DNA of 64,000 nt from Hippopus hippopus. Its lineage: Eukaryota; Mollusca; Bivalvia; Cardiida; Cardiidae. The position numbers and the translations under genes are program-made. Of this stretch, positions 3,156 to 48,258 are shown one piece after another. The notes under the pieces are model-generated. The model saw only the letters and a list, made by a program, of their open reading frames with translations. It was not told the origin of the DNA and made no database searches. The number at the start of each line of letters is the position of its first letter. Position 1 is the first letter of the stretch. The stretch covers positions 42,966,845 through 43,030,844 of the forward strand of contig OX328105.1 of the NCBI GenBank assembly GCA_946811185.2, written 5' to 3'.

Positions 3156-3184
3156 ATAATCAACTCTTCTTTCATGTTGATGCA

Positions 3185-3487
3185 ACAGTTCTGACCAATG
3201 ACGTCCCAAGGCAGGGACTGAACCCAGGACCTCCAGAACCCAAGGTGAACACTCTACCACATCGCTACAAAAGCTAGCTCTATAGCAAGGCAGTGTAAGT
3301 GTCCCCTTATACAAACACAAGCTACACATTTATATCTATCTGTTGGATAGACCAGTATACTACAAACAAGACAAGTATTGAACCCTGGACCTCCAGTTCC
3401 CAAGGCGAACACTCAACCACGTTGCTACAACAGCTAGCTTTATAGCAAGGCAGTATAAGTGTCCCGTTACACAAACACAAACTATAC
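3185..3487 (-). repeat. Two direct copies of a tRNA-like pol III promoter unit
   Basis: Two units about 160 bp apart (3195-3300 and 3366-3470) read on the minus strand as TAGCGATGTGGTAGAGTG (A-box-like) then GGGTTCAGTCC / GGGTTCAATAC (B-box-like). Each is preceded by TGCCTTGCTATAGAGCTAGC, which is also present in the LTR of the miniature retrotransposon at 36887-37333. They may be the two LTRs of a decayed relative or a dimeric SINE. Confidence 0.5.
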
Positions 3488-3752
3488 AATGAGCCATGCT
3501 CTGGAAAAAGGGGGCTTAATGCATCTCCATAATGCATCATACCAAGCATGTCATCATATGACAATAGATCCATAAAATCCATTTTGTCTAATAACTAACT
3601 TAATTATGAGGTAGATTTGTCCTTTGACATGCAGAAATTGATCAACAGCAAAAAGTTTAGGCCCAGGTTAGCCTGCGCAGCATGCACAGGCTGACCTGGG
3701 CCGGTACTTTTTGAAGATGCATTAAGCCCCCTTTTCACAGAGCATGGCTCAT
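3488..3752. repeat. MITE-B, complete
   Basis: Ends TGAGCCATGCTCTGG and CAGAGCATGGCTCA are inverted repeats continuing through AAAAAGGGGGCTTAATGCAT and its complement. The middle has a second hairpin, CCCAGGTTAGCCTGCGCAG against CAGGCTGACCTGGG. The flanking sequence TTATATCTATCTGT...ATAGACCAGTATACTAC occurs on both sides (3330-3364 and 3751-3787). Confidence 0.8.
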
Positions 3753-3787
3753 TTATATCTATCTGTAGCATAGACCAGTATACTACA

Positions 3788-7532: not shown

Positions 7533-7753
7533 TTAACCCTTCACCACACAATGCCGACCTTTAACGACCTGGTGGAAGAAGCCTTTTGGAAAACATTGTG
7601 GGATATGGAGAAAATGCTCATTTTCTCCTTTTACCACAATGTTTTCTACCCTATCAAACAAAAATCGCATCATTTGAGCCACATTTACATTGTCGTCTGC
7701 AAATGCTTTCAATTTGGACAGGTCTAAAATTTTGTCGTCTGGTAAAGGATTAA
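7533..7753 (-). repeat. MITE-A copy, full length
   Basis: Complete with ends. The palindrome loop (GCTGGTAACCAGC) is reduced to AATGCTCATTTTC. Confidence 0.9.
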
Positions 7754-7977
7754 CCCTTCACCACACAAAGATGTTTTAGACTTGTCCAAATCAAAGCTCT
7801 TGAAGATCACAAATTAAATGTGGTTCAGATGATGAAATTTGTCATTGAAATGGCAAAAAACATTGTTGGAAAAGGAAAGAATGCTGGTTACCAGGATTTT
7901 CTCATTTTCCAACAATGTTTTCAAATACTTTCTCCTCAGGGTAGTGAAGACACTGGATGGTTTGGTAAAGGGATGAA
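7750..7977 (+). repeat. MITE-A copy, full length, abutting
   Basis: It shares the TTAA at 7750-7753 with the previous copy: one element inserted into the terminal TTAA of another. Confidence 0.9.
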
Positions 7978-9216
7978 TATTATAAGAGGAAATATTTTGA
8001 CAAATTTGATGTTTCATGGAGGAAAACTGGCCTCTGGATCCAAAACATAATTATATCTGATCAATCCATCTAGTATTTGGCCTCAAAAGACCACCAGTGT
8101 TTGTTCTTAACTTTGTACTTGAGTTCTAGGTAGTAAACTTTCAAAAAAATATCACCCATGATTTATTTTCTATTTCTTTGTAAACTGGATTATGTGATAC
8201 CATCTTAAAGTAATCAATAAAAATAATGGTTTTCAGCATAACAATATATTTGAAAGTAAAATGTTTGTGCTTTTCCTTCAAGTATTTAAAGTGTGTTACA
8301 AGAAAAATAAGTCTTGTGCTATTTTCAGATCGTATCACTAACAGAATGGCAATTGTTTGATGCAAAGTTAATGTATTTTCAAGGTGAATAATACCTCAGT
8401 TTAAGGATGCATCTTTACTTGTTTTTATCCACTTTTATAACCAATTTTATCTGTATTTTATGAAATTATGATCATTCTTGTACCTTCGTGCCAAATGTTG
8501 CCCCTGACGGTTGCAAGGTTGCACAGATTACAACGGATTCTAGAAAATGCATTTCATTCTATTGCGGCTAGCCATAGACATAACAACCACAGTTTCCGGT
8601 TTAAATTGAAGACAAATCCCTGGCGTCTCTTTATCACATACACCTTATATCGCTTTTTAATCTATGTTTACACAGCTATCTAGATTCCACACACTGTAAA
8701 GTTGTAACAGCGTTTGTTTACTCTCAGGCTGTTAGGGTGCATCTTTAACACATTTATGGCAATTTTATGTGATGAACTTATTTCTTTCCTAAAACTATTT
8801 ATTGCACATGAAGGGGAAAATACGATGTAACTCACACACAGTTTCCTGTTCTCTTTTTCACTTAGGTAAATTTTGAAATAGTTGCCATGCAATTGTCATG
8901 CAATTAGCACAACTTACTTGATTTGGATGCTAATTAACAACCCTATGCAGGGTCATAGGCACAGGGGAGGGAGGGGAGGGGGCAGGGAAAGAGTGGGCAG
9001 TTTGAAATATTTTGGTAAATAAAAGCTTAAATAAATCTCCTTAATAATAAGATGACCAACCCACATTTTTAAGATAAAGAAATACATAGCAAAAACTATT
9101 TTTAAGATAAAGAAATACATAGCAGAAACTAAACCTGCATGTCTAACCTATGTTCCTACTAATCTTGATCTCAAGCCAAAGATAAAGTAGAGGGGCTTCA
9201 TGATACATGTTTATGT
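7978..9216. other. No recognised feature
   Basis: Unique-looking AT-rich intron. An imperfect direct repeat of about 45 bp (TTTTTAAGATAAAGAAATACATAGCA twice, 9067-9125) and a purine-rich G tract at 8965-8994 are the only structures seen. Confidence 0.5.
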
Positions 9217-15506: not shown

Positions 15507-15913
15507 AGCTTTTATCCTTTTTTTCCTTGAAAAAAAAAATAACTTCCACAGTGACCTTCAGCCTTGTTTTCTGGCAAAATAAGCATGTATGGGTACCATT
15601 TTTATATTTTCTTATTGTTTAAAATTATAAATACTATAAGTGTGGAAATTTTCAGAAAAATCTGTCTGTTAGAAAGTGTGTATCTATCTGACTATTAAAG
15701 AAAGGCATGTTAAATCCAATACGAGGGCTGTTCGATATGTAATGTGTATTGTACCACAGCACGATAACGCTTTCAACGATTTCGTGGATGATGATATGCT
15801 TGAATAGCTCTATTCAATACCTTTCCAACGGTATAAACACGAGCCTTTAGCTCCACATAGTTTTAAACTTATAGTCATTTCATTAGAGTTAGTCGTTGAC
15901 CACTGTTGTAAAA

Positions 15914-16918
15914 ATGGTTGGGAAACGGATTAAGAATATTGAAGAAATTAGAGCTTATATAAAAGTTCACAGAAAACTCGGTCATTCGGTAATGCAGATT
16001 TTTACTGAATTGGGGGAAGTTTATGGGTCTGATAAGGTATCTTATGAGACAGTTCGTAGGTGGATAAAGAAATTTCTGACTGGCACAGAGTCCGTCAAAG
16101 ATGCAGCAAAATCTGGCCGACCTGTGACTGTAACAGGCAAGGCAAATGTCTCAAAAGTCAGGGAAATAATTGAAAGTGATGACAGATACACAATTCGTGA
16201 CATTGCCAACGCTGTTGGCATATCGCTATCGCGGGTGCATTTCATTTTGAAGTGTATTTTGAAAGTACGAAAGATTTCTGCCAGATGGATACCGCATATA
16301 TTGACAGATGACCAAAAATGGGTACGAGTACAAACTGCTAAGCAATTGCTCAAAATGTTTCCCAAATTCAATCAAAGACAATTTGCAAACATTGTTACTG
16401 GTGACGAAACATGGGTTCACTATTTCGAACCAGTAAGAAAAATTGGAAACAAAATATGGCTAACTAAACACGGTAGAAGGCCTGTATTTGCCAAAAGAAG
16501 CATAAGCACAAAGAGGGTTCTTTATTGCATATTCTTCTCATGTGATGGTATAGCATTACAAATTCCAGTGCCGAAGGCCAAAATTGTTACAGGTCGGTAT
16601 TACCGAGATGTTATACTAAAAAAGCTCAAGAAATATTATCTTAAACAACGCCCTGTGTCAGGATTTAGGCATGTTCGTCTACTTCATGATAATGCTCCAT
16701 CACATACATCTGAGCTTGTGAAGCAATTTTTGAAGTCGGAGAAGGTTACTGTCTTCCCACACCCACCATACTCTCCAGATCTAGCCCCATGCGACTTTTT
16801 CCTTTTTCCAAAACTTAAAAAGTTCTTATCTGGTCGTCGTTACAAGTCCCGACAAGCCCTTGGCTCAGCCATCAGTCAGTGCCTCAGAGGTCTACCTAAA
16901 TCAGCGTACCATAAATAA
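15914..16918 (+). CDS. Mariner-family transposase, C-terminus cut off
   Basis: A DD34D cut-and-paste transposase. From the ATG at 15914 the product is 334 residues. An N-terminal helix-turn-helix (RAYIKVHRKLGHSVMQIFTE and YETVRRWIKKF, residues 14-54) and a second DNA-binding helix (RDIANAVGISLSRVHFIL) precede a WIPHIL linker near residue 125. The catalytic aspartates are D164 in VTGDETW, D259 in LLHDNAP and D294 in YSPDLAPCDFFLF, with 34 residues between the last two, which is the mariner signature. The frame is uninterrupted. It ends SAYHK where the inverted copy begins; the missing last 20 or so residues are present in the minus copy. In-frame TTG at 15896 is not a likely start. All catalytic residues are intact, but the short C-terminus may matter. 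Confidence 0.9.
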   Translation: MVGKRIKNIEEIRAYIKVHRKLGHSVMQIFTELGEVYGSDKVSYETVRRWIKKFLTGTESVKDAAKSGRPVTVTGKANVSKVREIIESDDRYTIRDIANAVGISLSRVHFILKCILKVRKISARWIPHILTDDQKWVRVQTAKQLLKMFPKFNQRQFANIVTGDETWVHYFEPVRKIGNKIWLTKHGRRPVFAKRSISTKRVLYCIFFSCDGIALQIPVPKAKIVTGRYYRDVILKKLKKYYLKQRPVSGFRHVRLLHDNAPSHTSELVKQFLKSEKVTVFPHPPYSPDLAPCDFFLFPKLKKFLSGRRYKSRQALGSAISQCLRGLPKSAYHK

Positions 16919-17645
16919 AATATTCTCCGCGGTTTGAAATACATAATTTCAATCTCTGAATCCATTTCTGAAATGCGTCACGGTACGCTGATTTAGGTAG
17001 ACCTCCTGACACAGGGCGTCGTTTAAGATAATATTTCTTGAGCTTTTTTAGTATAACATCTCGGTAATACCGACCTGTAACACTTTTGCCCTTCGGCACC
17101 GGAATTTGTAATGCTATTCTATCACATGAGAAGAATATGCAATAAAGAACTTTCTTTGTGCTTGTGCTTCTTTTGGCAACTATTTTGAGCAATTGCTTAG
17201 CGGTTTGTACTTGTACCCATTTTTGGTCATCTGTCAATATATGAGGTATCTATCTGGCAGAAATCTTTTGTACTTTCAAAATACGCTTTAAAATGAAATG
17301 CACCCGCGATAGCGATATGCTAACAGCGTCGGCAATATCACGAATCGTGTATCTGCCATCACTTTCAATTATTTCCCTGACTTTTGAGACATTTGCCTTG
17401 CCTGTTAAAGTCACAGGTCGGCCAGATTTTGCTGCATCTTTGACAGACTCTGTGCCAGTCAGAAATTTCTTTCTCCAACTACGAACTGTCTCATAAGATA
17501 CCTTATCAGACCCGTAAACTTCCCCCAATTCAGTAACAATCTGCATTACTGAATGACCGAGTTTTGTGCGAACTTTTACATAAGCACTAATTTCTTCAAT
17601 ATTCCTAATCCGTTTCCCAACCATTTTTACAACAGTGGTCAACAA
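16896..17645 (-). pseudogene. Mariner transposase, inverted copy, deleted and interrupted
   Basis: Minus-strand partner of the plus copy. The N-terminal half (from 17627) is intact up to ISAR, where TGG has become TAG (complement of 17247-17249). The frame then continues, but two blocks are missing: one between LLKI and VAKRS, which removes the first catalytic Asp, and one between RPVSG and GLPKSAYRD, which removes the second and third. The C-terminal end (FQKWIQRLKLCISNRGEYF) survives only here. It cannot encode an active enzyme. Confidence 0.85.
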
Positions 17646-36654: not shown

Positions 36655-36882
36655 CTAACTCTTTACCAGATGACAAAATTTTAGACTGTTCCAAATTGTA
36701 AGCATTAGCAGACAACAAAATTAAAGTGACTCAAAAACAAAATTTGTTTTGGGAAAGGTAGAAAACATTGTGGGAAAAGGAGAAAATGCTGGTTACCAGC
36801 ATTTTCTCCTTTTCCTACCATGTTTTCAAAAGGCTTTTTTCACAGTCGTGAAAACCAGGGATTGTTTGGTAAAGAGTTAATT
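36655..36882 (+). repeat. MITE-A copy, full length
   Basis: Excellent palindrome (36775-36820). Four bases after its terminal TTAA the miniature LTR element begins. Confidence 0.9.
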
Positions 36883-36886
36883 AAAG

Positions 36887-37043
36887 TGTAACGTGCAACG
36901 ACCTGGTCACCCACCCAGGTACTAACCTAGAGCACGTTGCTTAACTATCACGGAGAGAAATACACCAAACCACATCGCTGTAAAAGCTAGCTCAACAGCA
37001 AGGCAGGTTTCAAGTGCTTATATATCTAACTCTCTCTGTGACA
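36887..37043 (-). repeat. 3' LTR of the miniature element
   Basis: 157 bp, same 5S-like region (complement of 36901-36951). Confidence 0.8.
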
Positions 37044-37156
37044 TTACTTCTCCCTTCGACAAGTCTCGACCTCGAGACTTATATACAAACATGTATATAT
37101 AAATAAACCAGGGGAATATACATGGGTAAGGCAACTCCAGTCCGGCAGTTGTCATA

Positions 37157-37174
37157 ATCCCACCGCTGCCACCA
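37157..37174 (-). promoter_or_regulatory. Primer-binding site, tRNA-Leu type
   Basis: The plus strand here reads ATCCCACCGCTGCCACCA, identical to the 3' end (with CCA) of tRNA-Leu(UAG) as I know it. Confidence 0.8.
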
Positions 37175-37176
37175 AA

Positions 37177-37333
37177 TGTAACGTGCAATGACCTGGTCAC
37201 CCATCCAGGCACTAACTATAACCACATTGCTTAACTTGCACGGAGAGAACTGCACCAAACCACATCGCTGTAAAAGCTAGCTCAACAGCAAGGCAGGTTT
37301 CAAGTGCTTATATATCTAACTCTTTCCGTGACA
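37177..37333 (-). repeat. 5' LTR of the miniature element
   Basis: 157 bp. A TATATAAG word near its 5' end could be a TATA box. The 5S-like region is the complement of 37191-37241. Confidence 0.8.
37191..37241 (-). promoter_or_regulatory. 5S rRNA-like internal control region in the LTR
   Basis: AAGTTAAGCAATGT corresponds to 5S box A (AAGCTAAGCAGGGT), TAGTTAGT to the intermediate element and TGGATGGGTGACC to box C (TGGATGGGAGACC). The A-to-C spacing is 30 bases here against 31 in typical animal 5S rRNA. The other LTR keeps GGTTAGTACC, even closer to 5S. Confidence 0.75.
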
Positions 37334-37337
37334 AAAG

Positions 37338-47780: not shown

Positions 47781-47880
47781 TTGTCGAGTCACTCTGTGTA
47801 TACCGTCAGTAGACATTAAGTAGGAACGCGGATGATTGTATGCAGATATCTGAGTATTAACTGAGAATTGAGCTGAAAAA

Positions 47881-48258
47881 ATGGTAAATTGTGCAGCCTA
47901 TGGCTGCAACGTCGATTCGGGAACTCAAAGAAGTAGTATTTTCAAATTTCCGAAGGAATTAAAAAGGAGGAAACTATGGATTCAACGTTTAAACCGGGGC
48001 CGGACAGTAGCGACGGATTTTTTGCCATCGGTTCATTCGAAATTGTGTCTGAAATACTTCGATGACAGTCAGTTCTTAACAAGTCCAAAACTCGCAAAAG
48101 AAGTTGGTTATAGGAATTTTAGGCTGCGGTTAAAACCTGACGCTGTGCCGACATTATTCGAAACTCCGAGTCGAAAGGAGATAGGCCTTAAACCGAAACT
48201 CCGAAAGACAGACATTCCGCAACGGCAATTTCCAAAAAGAAAATCCAACATGAAGTAG
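47881..48258 (+). CDS. THAP-domain protein, N-terminal part of an element-encoded protein
   Basis: 125 residues. THAP zinc-finger features: start MVNCAAYGCN (first two zinc cysteines), SIFKFPKELKRRKLWIQRL (conserved F-P and W helix), then LCLKYFDDSQF where THAP domains have C-x2-H: the zinc-binding His is replaced by Tyr. AVPTLF after about 90 residues is the C-terminal AVPxxF motif. The stop TAG is immediately followed by GTAATT, a possible splice donor, so the product may be a first exon closed by a nonsense codon. Expected role: DNA binding by a transposase; with the altered ligand, the finger may not fold normally. It is in the plus direction, opposite to the ZP gene whose intron 1 holds it. 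Confidence 0.7.
   Translation: MVNCAAYGCNVDSGTQRSSIFKFPKELKRRKLWIQRLNRGRTVATDFLPSVHSKLCLKYFDDSQFLTSPKLAKEVGYRNFRLRLKPDAVPTLFETPSRKEIGLKPKLRKTDIPQRQFPKRKSNMK

Follow-up and report, generated by a model that had tools for sequence, protein, structure and literature searches.

A TRIM family with 5S-derived promoter sequence in its LTRs in the bivalve Hippopus hippopus

The gain of polymerase III promoters by TRIMs has so far been argued from sequence leftovers. Among the systems described to date, Ajax (Kojima 2024, PMC10886601) is a 5S TRIM reported, in the available part of that article, from two species only, the nemerteans Notospermus and Lineus; it measures 421 or 434 bp, is flanked by 5-bp duplications and carries a tRNA-Leu primer site. 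Helenus, a tRNA TRIM whose animal copies have 4-bp duplications, is reported there from the same two nemerteans and, among bivalves, from Pteriomorphia only, and Gypsy elements are suggested as its helper in animals. The available text also proposes SINE insertion as the source of the 5S sequence in both Ajax and the plant family Cassandra, gives the terminal repeat of Cassandra as 18 bp, and contains neither 'TATA' nor 'TTTT', with 'terminat' occurring only in relation to Cassandra. A 2026 meeting report names Ajax and Helenus and, in its available part, adds no new hosts. In bivalves, biv-TRIM elements have been described with terminal repeats of 202-218 bp and internal regions of 77-80 bp (Satovic et al. 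2019, PMC6934838, available part).

The element reported here is a 447-bp TRIM at positions 36887-37333 of a 64-kb stretch of the Hippopus hippopus genome (the window), with its sense on the minus strand, and full-length copies are present elsewhere in the genome. Its 5' LTR (37177-37333) and 3' LTR (36887-37043), each of 157 bp, enclose a non-coding internal region of 133 bp (37044-37176), and the target-site duplication AAAG (CTTT on the minus strand; locus L009) is found at 36883-36886 and 37334-37337. Read on the minus strand, the internal region starts with TTTGGTGGCAGCGGTGGGAT, encompassing the tRNA-type primer-binding site TGGTGGCAGCGGTGGGAT (37157-37174), and finishes with GAAGGGAGAAG TAA, placing the polypurine tract GAAGGGAGAAG (37047-37057) 3 nt ahead of the 3' LTR. 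We take the primer-binding site to be that of tRNA-Leu. With 157 + 133 + 157 bp, a total below 1 kb and no coding capacity, the element has the dimensions of a TRIM, and its primer site and polypurine tract adjoin the LTRs, as is typical of this class. All these components had been listed in the original prediction, as had the lack of coding sequence, and no ORF of at least 70 aa (standard code, stop to stop) overlaps the element.

Cassandra keeps a larger 5S part than this element, and the extent of the 5S sequence, the primer site and the host rule out membership in that family; of the Cassandra-like nature originally proposed, what stands is a TRIM with a 5S promoter and a similar anatomy. 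Both have a 5S promoter in the LTR, tandem LTR-internal-LTR arrays and a hypervariable spacer between box A and the intermediate element (IE), according to the available parts of PMC7215508 and PMC10853983, and both have, as a prediction in the case of the clam TRIM, a short terminal repeat with start and stop inside the LTRs. They differ in primer site (TGGTATCAGAGC in PMC7215508 against TGGTGGCAGCGGTGGGAT in the clam), in host (plants against a bivalve) and in length (565-860 bp against 447 bp). Compared by published description only, Ajax resembles the clam element in being a TRIM whose LTR retains 5S sequence for the promoter boxes (A, IE and C) alone, but it has 5-bp instead of 4-bp duplications and nemertean instead of bivalve hosts, and the upstream part of its LTR has been likened to SINE3 families, whereas that of the clam element matches a tRNA TRIM (PMC10886601, available part). 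Helenus, as described in the same source, has 4-bp duplications like the clam element, which contains the start, T4 and A-box stretch of a Helenus-like TRIM of its own genome; Helenus LTRs, however, carry tRNA-like sequence with both A and B boxes, and a B box was found in 0/62 LTRs of the clam 5S TRIM. Elements of the biv-TRIM type, present in bivalves including the cockle Cerastoderma edule, also form tandem arrays, but differ in their lengths and have no clear primer site, and the term '5S rRNA' is absent from the available main text (PMC6934838). The view that 5S TRIMs are established from plants was overtaken by the 2024 publication of Ajax from animals (PMC10886601, available part), while its other half holds in that no bivalve 5S TRIM was found, by title and abstract start, among the listed matches in the open-licence PMC literature. 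We conclude that the clam element represents a 5S-promoter TRIM new for a bivalve, best filed as a family of its own, which by its anatomy should work like Cassandra and Ajax.

The search for this family covered the 1.07-Gb assembly (34 contigs), with the best 40 of 886 candidates scored, and identified at least 46 matches, the true number being probably higher. Eighteen of the contigs are of chromosome size, while the largest of ten others sampled measures 57 kb; contig C34 (24 kb) is mitochondrial, and its cytochrome b, at 91% identity to the Hippopus hippopus cluster and 74-76% to the next-best matches, three other cockles, marks the host as a tridacnine-like bivalve. Exact 4-bp target duplications were observed at 31 of the 40 loci examined with 1.5-kb flanks (21/30 in L009-L038 and 10/10 in L051-L060; binomial P <1e-50), against 5-bp duplications at none of the 30 loci in the first set. 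This genome-wide pattern, which had been put forward as a check on the repeats, indicates that they are indeed LTRs, and the 4-bp duplications rule out a tandem duplication or a SINE. Among the nine loci without an exact duplication, L011, L015 and L018 have one common set of flanks and go back to one insertion that was copied together with the neighbouring sequence; L012 is truncated on the right, L035 continues into another primer site, and the duplications of L022, L026, L034 and L036 are off by 1-2 bases. LTR-internal-LTR-internal-LTR arrays account for five of the 40 loci (L012, with a truncated last LTR; L013; L024, with an insert; L036 and L059). The commonest form of the primer site, TTTGGTGGCAGCGGTGGGAT, is present in 20 of 44 internal regions. 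Since the median K2P distance between neighbouring LTRs is low (0.019; 32 pairs, first 30 loci) and the LTRs are identical within L011 and within L028, the activity of the family appears to be recent in relative terms. A further copy (L075) is cut within its 3' LTR, and another (L078) was recognized by eye as a diverged 5S TRIM.

The two LTRs of the window copy are less alike, with 90.4% identity (15 differences in 157; K2P 0.103) and zero differences between LTR nt 11 and 81. The copy is a hybrid of two subfamilies, its 5' LTR presenting CA at columns 97-98 and GGTTATA at columns 112-118 ('CA/GGTTATA') and its 3' LTR being of the 'AT/GCTCTAG' type, and it nevertheless has a perfect target duplication. 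Mixing of subfamilies within one element or array was also observed in L012 and L013, and both L009, the window copy, and L013 retain exact duplications. This suggests that exchange between elements, perhaps before integration, accounts for the mixed LTRs better than age.

The 5S sequence in the LTRs was analyzed against the native 5S gene of the same genome, for which 47 RF00001 matches were available (all 47 candidates were scored, of 18,950 in the first look). Columns 99-140 of the LTR are collinear with nt 50-92 of native 5S, encompassing box A, the IE and most of box C, so that each LTR contains 42-43 nt of host-type 5S. In the window, these segments map to 37195-37237 in the 5' LTR (native 5S nt 49-92) and 36905-36946 in the 3' LTR (nt 50-92), both on the minus strand, with the promoter blocks in the order originally described. 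The majority LTR aligns to native 5S with a score of 44 (z 13.6; shuffle mean 14.7, sd 2.1, maximum 25, n=2000), against 14 for the antisense alignment, and the window 5' and 3' LTRs reach scores of 36 (z 10.0) and 49 (z 15.9). All real scores lie above those of the 2000 dinucleotide shuffles generated per LTR, and this range of z values (10-16) rules out a chance match. When native 5S was compared with the whole window, the two LTRs ranked at the top (83.7% and 77.3% identity; E 1.3e-6 and 2.8e-4), with the third-best match reaching only E 1.5. The covariance-model search recommended with the original prediction, which had named the lack of a 5S score above shuffled sequence as grounds for refutation, turned out differently, as the Rfam 5S model returned no match at the gathering threshold, nor at E<=10 on the TRIM stretch. 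This silence is explained by the retention of only the promoter part of 5S, about 43 of 119 nt, and it rules out a full 5S gene copy or a functional 5S RNA.

Conservation across 62 LTRs was assessed through the frequency of off-majority letters: boxes A and C show 1.1% and 1.0%, respectively, and the IE 5.1%, whereas the 6-nt spacer that separates box A from the IE (columns 112-117) reaches 23%. A short hypervariable motif in this same position has been reported in plant Cassandra (PMC10853983, available part). Elsewhere in the LTR the frequency is 1.7% in columns 1-49, 0.8% in columns 50-63 and 4-5% in the rest of the 3' half, so that boxes A and C are not better conserved than the first 63 columns, nor the IE better than the 4-5% stretches, and differences in the boxes between LTRs of single elements are about as frequent as in the first 49 columns. 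The boxes thus differ from the spacer and from the remainder of the 3' half but not from the 5' half, and it is the contrast with the spacer that argues for constraint on them. Judged by its sequence, the LTR carries a 5S-type (type 1) promoter, that is, the small-RNA-derived promoter that is a feature of TRIMp3 elements.

The position of this promoter block outlines a putative transcription unit. The +1 position of 5S projects to approximately LTR nt 50, and a TATATAA motif is located some 23-29 nt upstream of it, at nt 20/21 in 62/62 LTRs and near there in 18/21 more (80/83 in total; 37308-37314, minus strand, in the window 5' LTR), although such a TATA box is equally suited to polymerase II. 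A run of four T (T4) is found at LTR nt 59/60 in 61/62 LTRs, with one LTR presenting a T4 at nt 85, and in 21/21 LTRs of the second set (82/83 in total), whereas the internal regions lack T4 in 33/33 and 10/11 cases in the first and second sets, respectively (43/44). The only T4 runs of the window copy are those of its two LTRs (37272-37275 and 36982-36985, minus strand), and a single T4 at the observed place arose in 1.6% of 5000 single-letter shuffles of LTR plus internal region (probability 0.016). These features are consistent with TFIIIA, TFIIIC and TFIIIB starting transcription near LTR nt 50, from where polymerase III would probably pass the T4 of the 5' LTR, which follows the expected start by about 10 nt and is probably too early to terminate, traverse the nearly always T4-free internal region and stop at the predicted terminator at nt 59-63 of the 3' LTR. 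The resulting RNA of about 0.3 kb would have a terminal repeat (R) of 10-14 nt and a tRNA primer (called tRNA-Leu), and a Ty3/Gypsy lineage would provide its reverse transcription and integration in trans. On this basis, we infer that the TRIM is transcribed by polymerase III.

A second TRIM in the same window bears on the origin of the 5S LTRs. LTR nt 38-75 of the 5S TRIM recur with 89% identity at window positions 3256-3293, and more weakly around 3409-3453. The former lie within a complete LTR (3181-3364, minus strand) of a Helenus-like TRIM with a putative tRNA promoter, accompanied by partial LTRs at 3368-3490 and 3748-3787 (minus strand), and the tRNA and 5S versions thus stand side by side within 64 kb. 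A segment of about 260 bp (~3491-3747), with ends resembling inverted repeats by eye, seems to interrupt one of these LTRs. The Helenus-like LTRs are 184-185 bp long (TGTAGTATAC...GTTACA), their internal regions measure 90-92 bp and open with TTGG (n=3), and they form arrays with a period of ~276. The set analyzed comprised 13 LTRs from the 8 of 12 loci fitting a fixed start/end pattern, five of the eight having one such LTR, and exact 4-bp duplications were found at 7 of these 8 loci. All 13 LTRs contain a T4, a tRNA-type A box and a B box, according to box patterns drawn up after inspecting the same LTRs. ARAGORN called no tRNA in the 12 Helenus-like loci, in three 5S-TRIM loci or in the window, and the tRNA character of these LTRs is hence read from the A-box and B-box patterns.

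Pairwise alignment of the 5S LTR of L028 with the Helenus-like LTR of L040 recovered 34 common nt out of 38 (score 56; shuffle maximum 31, n=2000), three other Helenus-like LTRs scored 46, 46 and 37, and an HMM of the Helenus-like LTR matched both window 5S LTRs (E 2e-7 and 4e-7). The common stretch spans the expected start, the T4 and the A box, with the TATA box at its edge, outside most of the common alignment; TATA is present at the matching place in 10/13 Helenus-like LTRs. An A box is detected in 57/62 5S LTRs, represented in the window by the apparent relic CAGCGATGTGG (37260-37270, minus strand), and a B box in none of the 62, the 5S block occupying its place. The 5S block of box A, IE and box C appears to have taken the place of the B-box half of a tRNA promoter in an LTR of the Helenus-like kind, a swap that would have kept the start, the terminator, the A box and probably the TATA box; we infer its direction from the orphan A box rather than from a phylogeny. 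The independent capture of a polymerase III promoter that had originally been proposed is therefore plausible, and the LTR stretch that also occurs in a tRNA-promoter TRIM of this genome gives it the sharper form of a swap. That this represents an in-place change from a type 2 to a type 1 promoter, with both versions surviving in one genome, and that 5S capture by TRIMs has been repeated, traceable and separate from Cassandra and perhaps from Ajax, is a proposition that we regard as evenly balanced. If true, the swap left the RNA start, the R region and the T4 end in place.

The original prediction had also called for an autonomous partner with the same LTR ends and primer site. With <=2 mismatches, the genome contains 209 occurrences of the pattern joining LTR end and primer site, a count that mixes TRIMs with other elements, and the reversed control gave 0. 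A non-TRIM copy on C3 (pieces L074, L076, L081 and L082, with L076 extending the copy) is a Ty3/Gypsy element with a gag zinc knuckle (by eye), an aspartyl protease domain and an integrase end; L077 is a near-identical Gypsy copy, and L079 and L080 carry the same primer site. The C3 element has LTRs of ~854 bp (TGTAAC...GCACGTCACA) and a 4-bp duplication, GTAC, at both sides, its LTR ends in GCACGTCACA against the near-identical GCACGTTACA of the 5S TRIM, and it is identical to the TRIM over 20 nt from the primer site onward. The correspondence is partial, as the LTRs start differently (TGTAAC in Gypsy against TGTCAC in the TRIM), the Gypsy element has AAA ahead of TTTGG, which is absent in the TRIM, and the primer site is the sole common part of the internal regions. 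An alternative Gypsy LTR start, TGTGACGG, was ruled out by the 3' LTR of the element, which begins with TGTAAC. Given the same primer site, the near-identical LTR 3' end and the equal duplication length, this Ty3/Gypsy lineage is a likely helper of the 5S TRIM. In L081 (C3:476100-477700), the Gypsy integrase frame runs on into a C2H2-like zinc-finger tail, with weak Pfam matches.

We consider it fairly probable that these observations are jointly explained by a TRIM with a 5S polymerase III promoter, mobilized by a Gypsy helper and originating from a Helenus-like element by a swap. A chance resemblance, or a plain tandem duplication that is not a retroelement, would agree with the silent Rfam model, but is scarcely credible in view of the dispersed copies, of the 4-bp duplications at 31/40 loci and of a 5S match with z >=10. 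A more substantial objection is that the 5S block could be a mere passenger, with polymerase II transcribing from the LTR TATA box as in ordinary TRIMs: TATATAA is present in 62/62 LTRs, its spacing to a start near nt 50 is a normal one, and boxes A and C are not better conserved than the first 63 LTR columns. The same LTRs, however, contain AATAAA or ATTAAA in 0/62 cases, the spacer between the boxes varies where the boxes themselves are conserved, and T4 is positioned just past the expected start and missing from 43/44 internal regions, making transcription by polymerase II rather unlikely.

SINE3 elements are 5S-headed SINEs mobilized by LINEs; like the clam TRIM they have a 5S-type polymerase III promoter within a mobile element, but they are devoid of LTRs, primer site and 4-bp duplication. 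The 5S part of the LTR might have arrived through a SINE3 inserted into the LTR of a TRIM, instead of through exchange with a Helenus-like LTR, and a Helenus-like LTR that took up such a SINE and afterwards lost its B-box half would have much the same sequence; this route has already been proposed for Ajax and Cassandra (PMC10886601, available part). The LTR showed no obvious SINE tail or insertion boundary, however, and upstream of the 5S block its similarity to the tRNA LTR extends through the A box, so that we see in SINE3 insertion an unlikely, if still appreciable, alternative. It is likewise doubtful that the clam TRIM is a true member of Ajax, both being parts of one old or horizontally moved lophotrochozoan lineage of 5S TRIMs. 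The element class, the near-identical length, the promoter-only 5S and the tRNA-Leu primer site of Ajax would fit such a relationship (PMC10886601, available part), and the occurrence of Helenus in the same two nemerteans makes a common chassis possible there too. Against it stand the 5-bp duplications of Ajax, compared with 0/30 loci with 5-bp and 31/40 with 4-bp duplications in the clam, the report of Ajax from two nemerteans only, and an upstream region that is SINE3-like in Ajax and tRNA-TRIM-like in the clam.

Under the preferred reading of a promoter swap in a Gypsy-dependent TRIM, one chromosome-scale genome contains the gene that was captured, a plausible chassis relative and a candidate helper, and this allows direct tests of the capture, of the Gypsy dependence and of the logic of an R region with start and T4 inside the LTR. 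The family would add bivalves to the plants and nemerteans in which 5S TRIMs occur, and a heterodont bivalve to the hosts of Helenus-like TRIMs, the available part of the 2024 paper having, among bivalves, Pteriomorphia only. It also suggests a way for such parasitic elements to switch to other cellular machinery for their own copying.

Other features were observed in the window and in the mitochondrial sequence. A mariner-type transposase frame without stops (15893-16918, plus strand) is 86-87% identical to annotated proteins of Saccostrea cucullata, and a second, broken mariner-type copy adjoins it in the opposite orientation (16896-17645, minus strand). Hairpin (MITE-like) repeats are abundant, at 36761-36827 and in many other places, with chance ORFs resembling VGKGENAGYQHFLLFPQC, and one long hairpin lies ~60 bp from the TRIM. 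A THAP-domain frame is located at 47872-48258 (plus strand; Pfam PF05485, E 1.8e-13). In piece L070 of the 24-kb mitochondrial contig, a piece in which ARAGORN called no tRNA, COX2 (7574-8509; named by eye) presents a long serine/acid-rich C-terminal extension.
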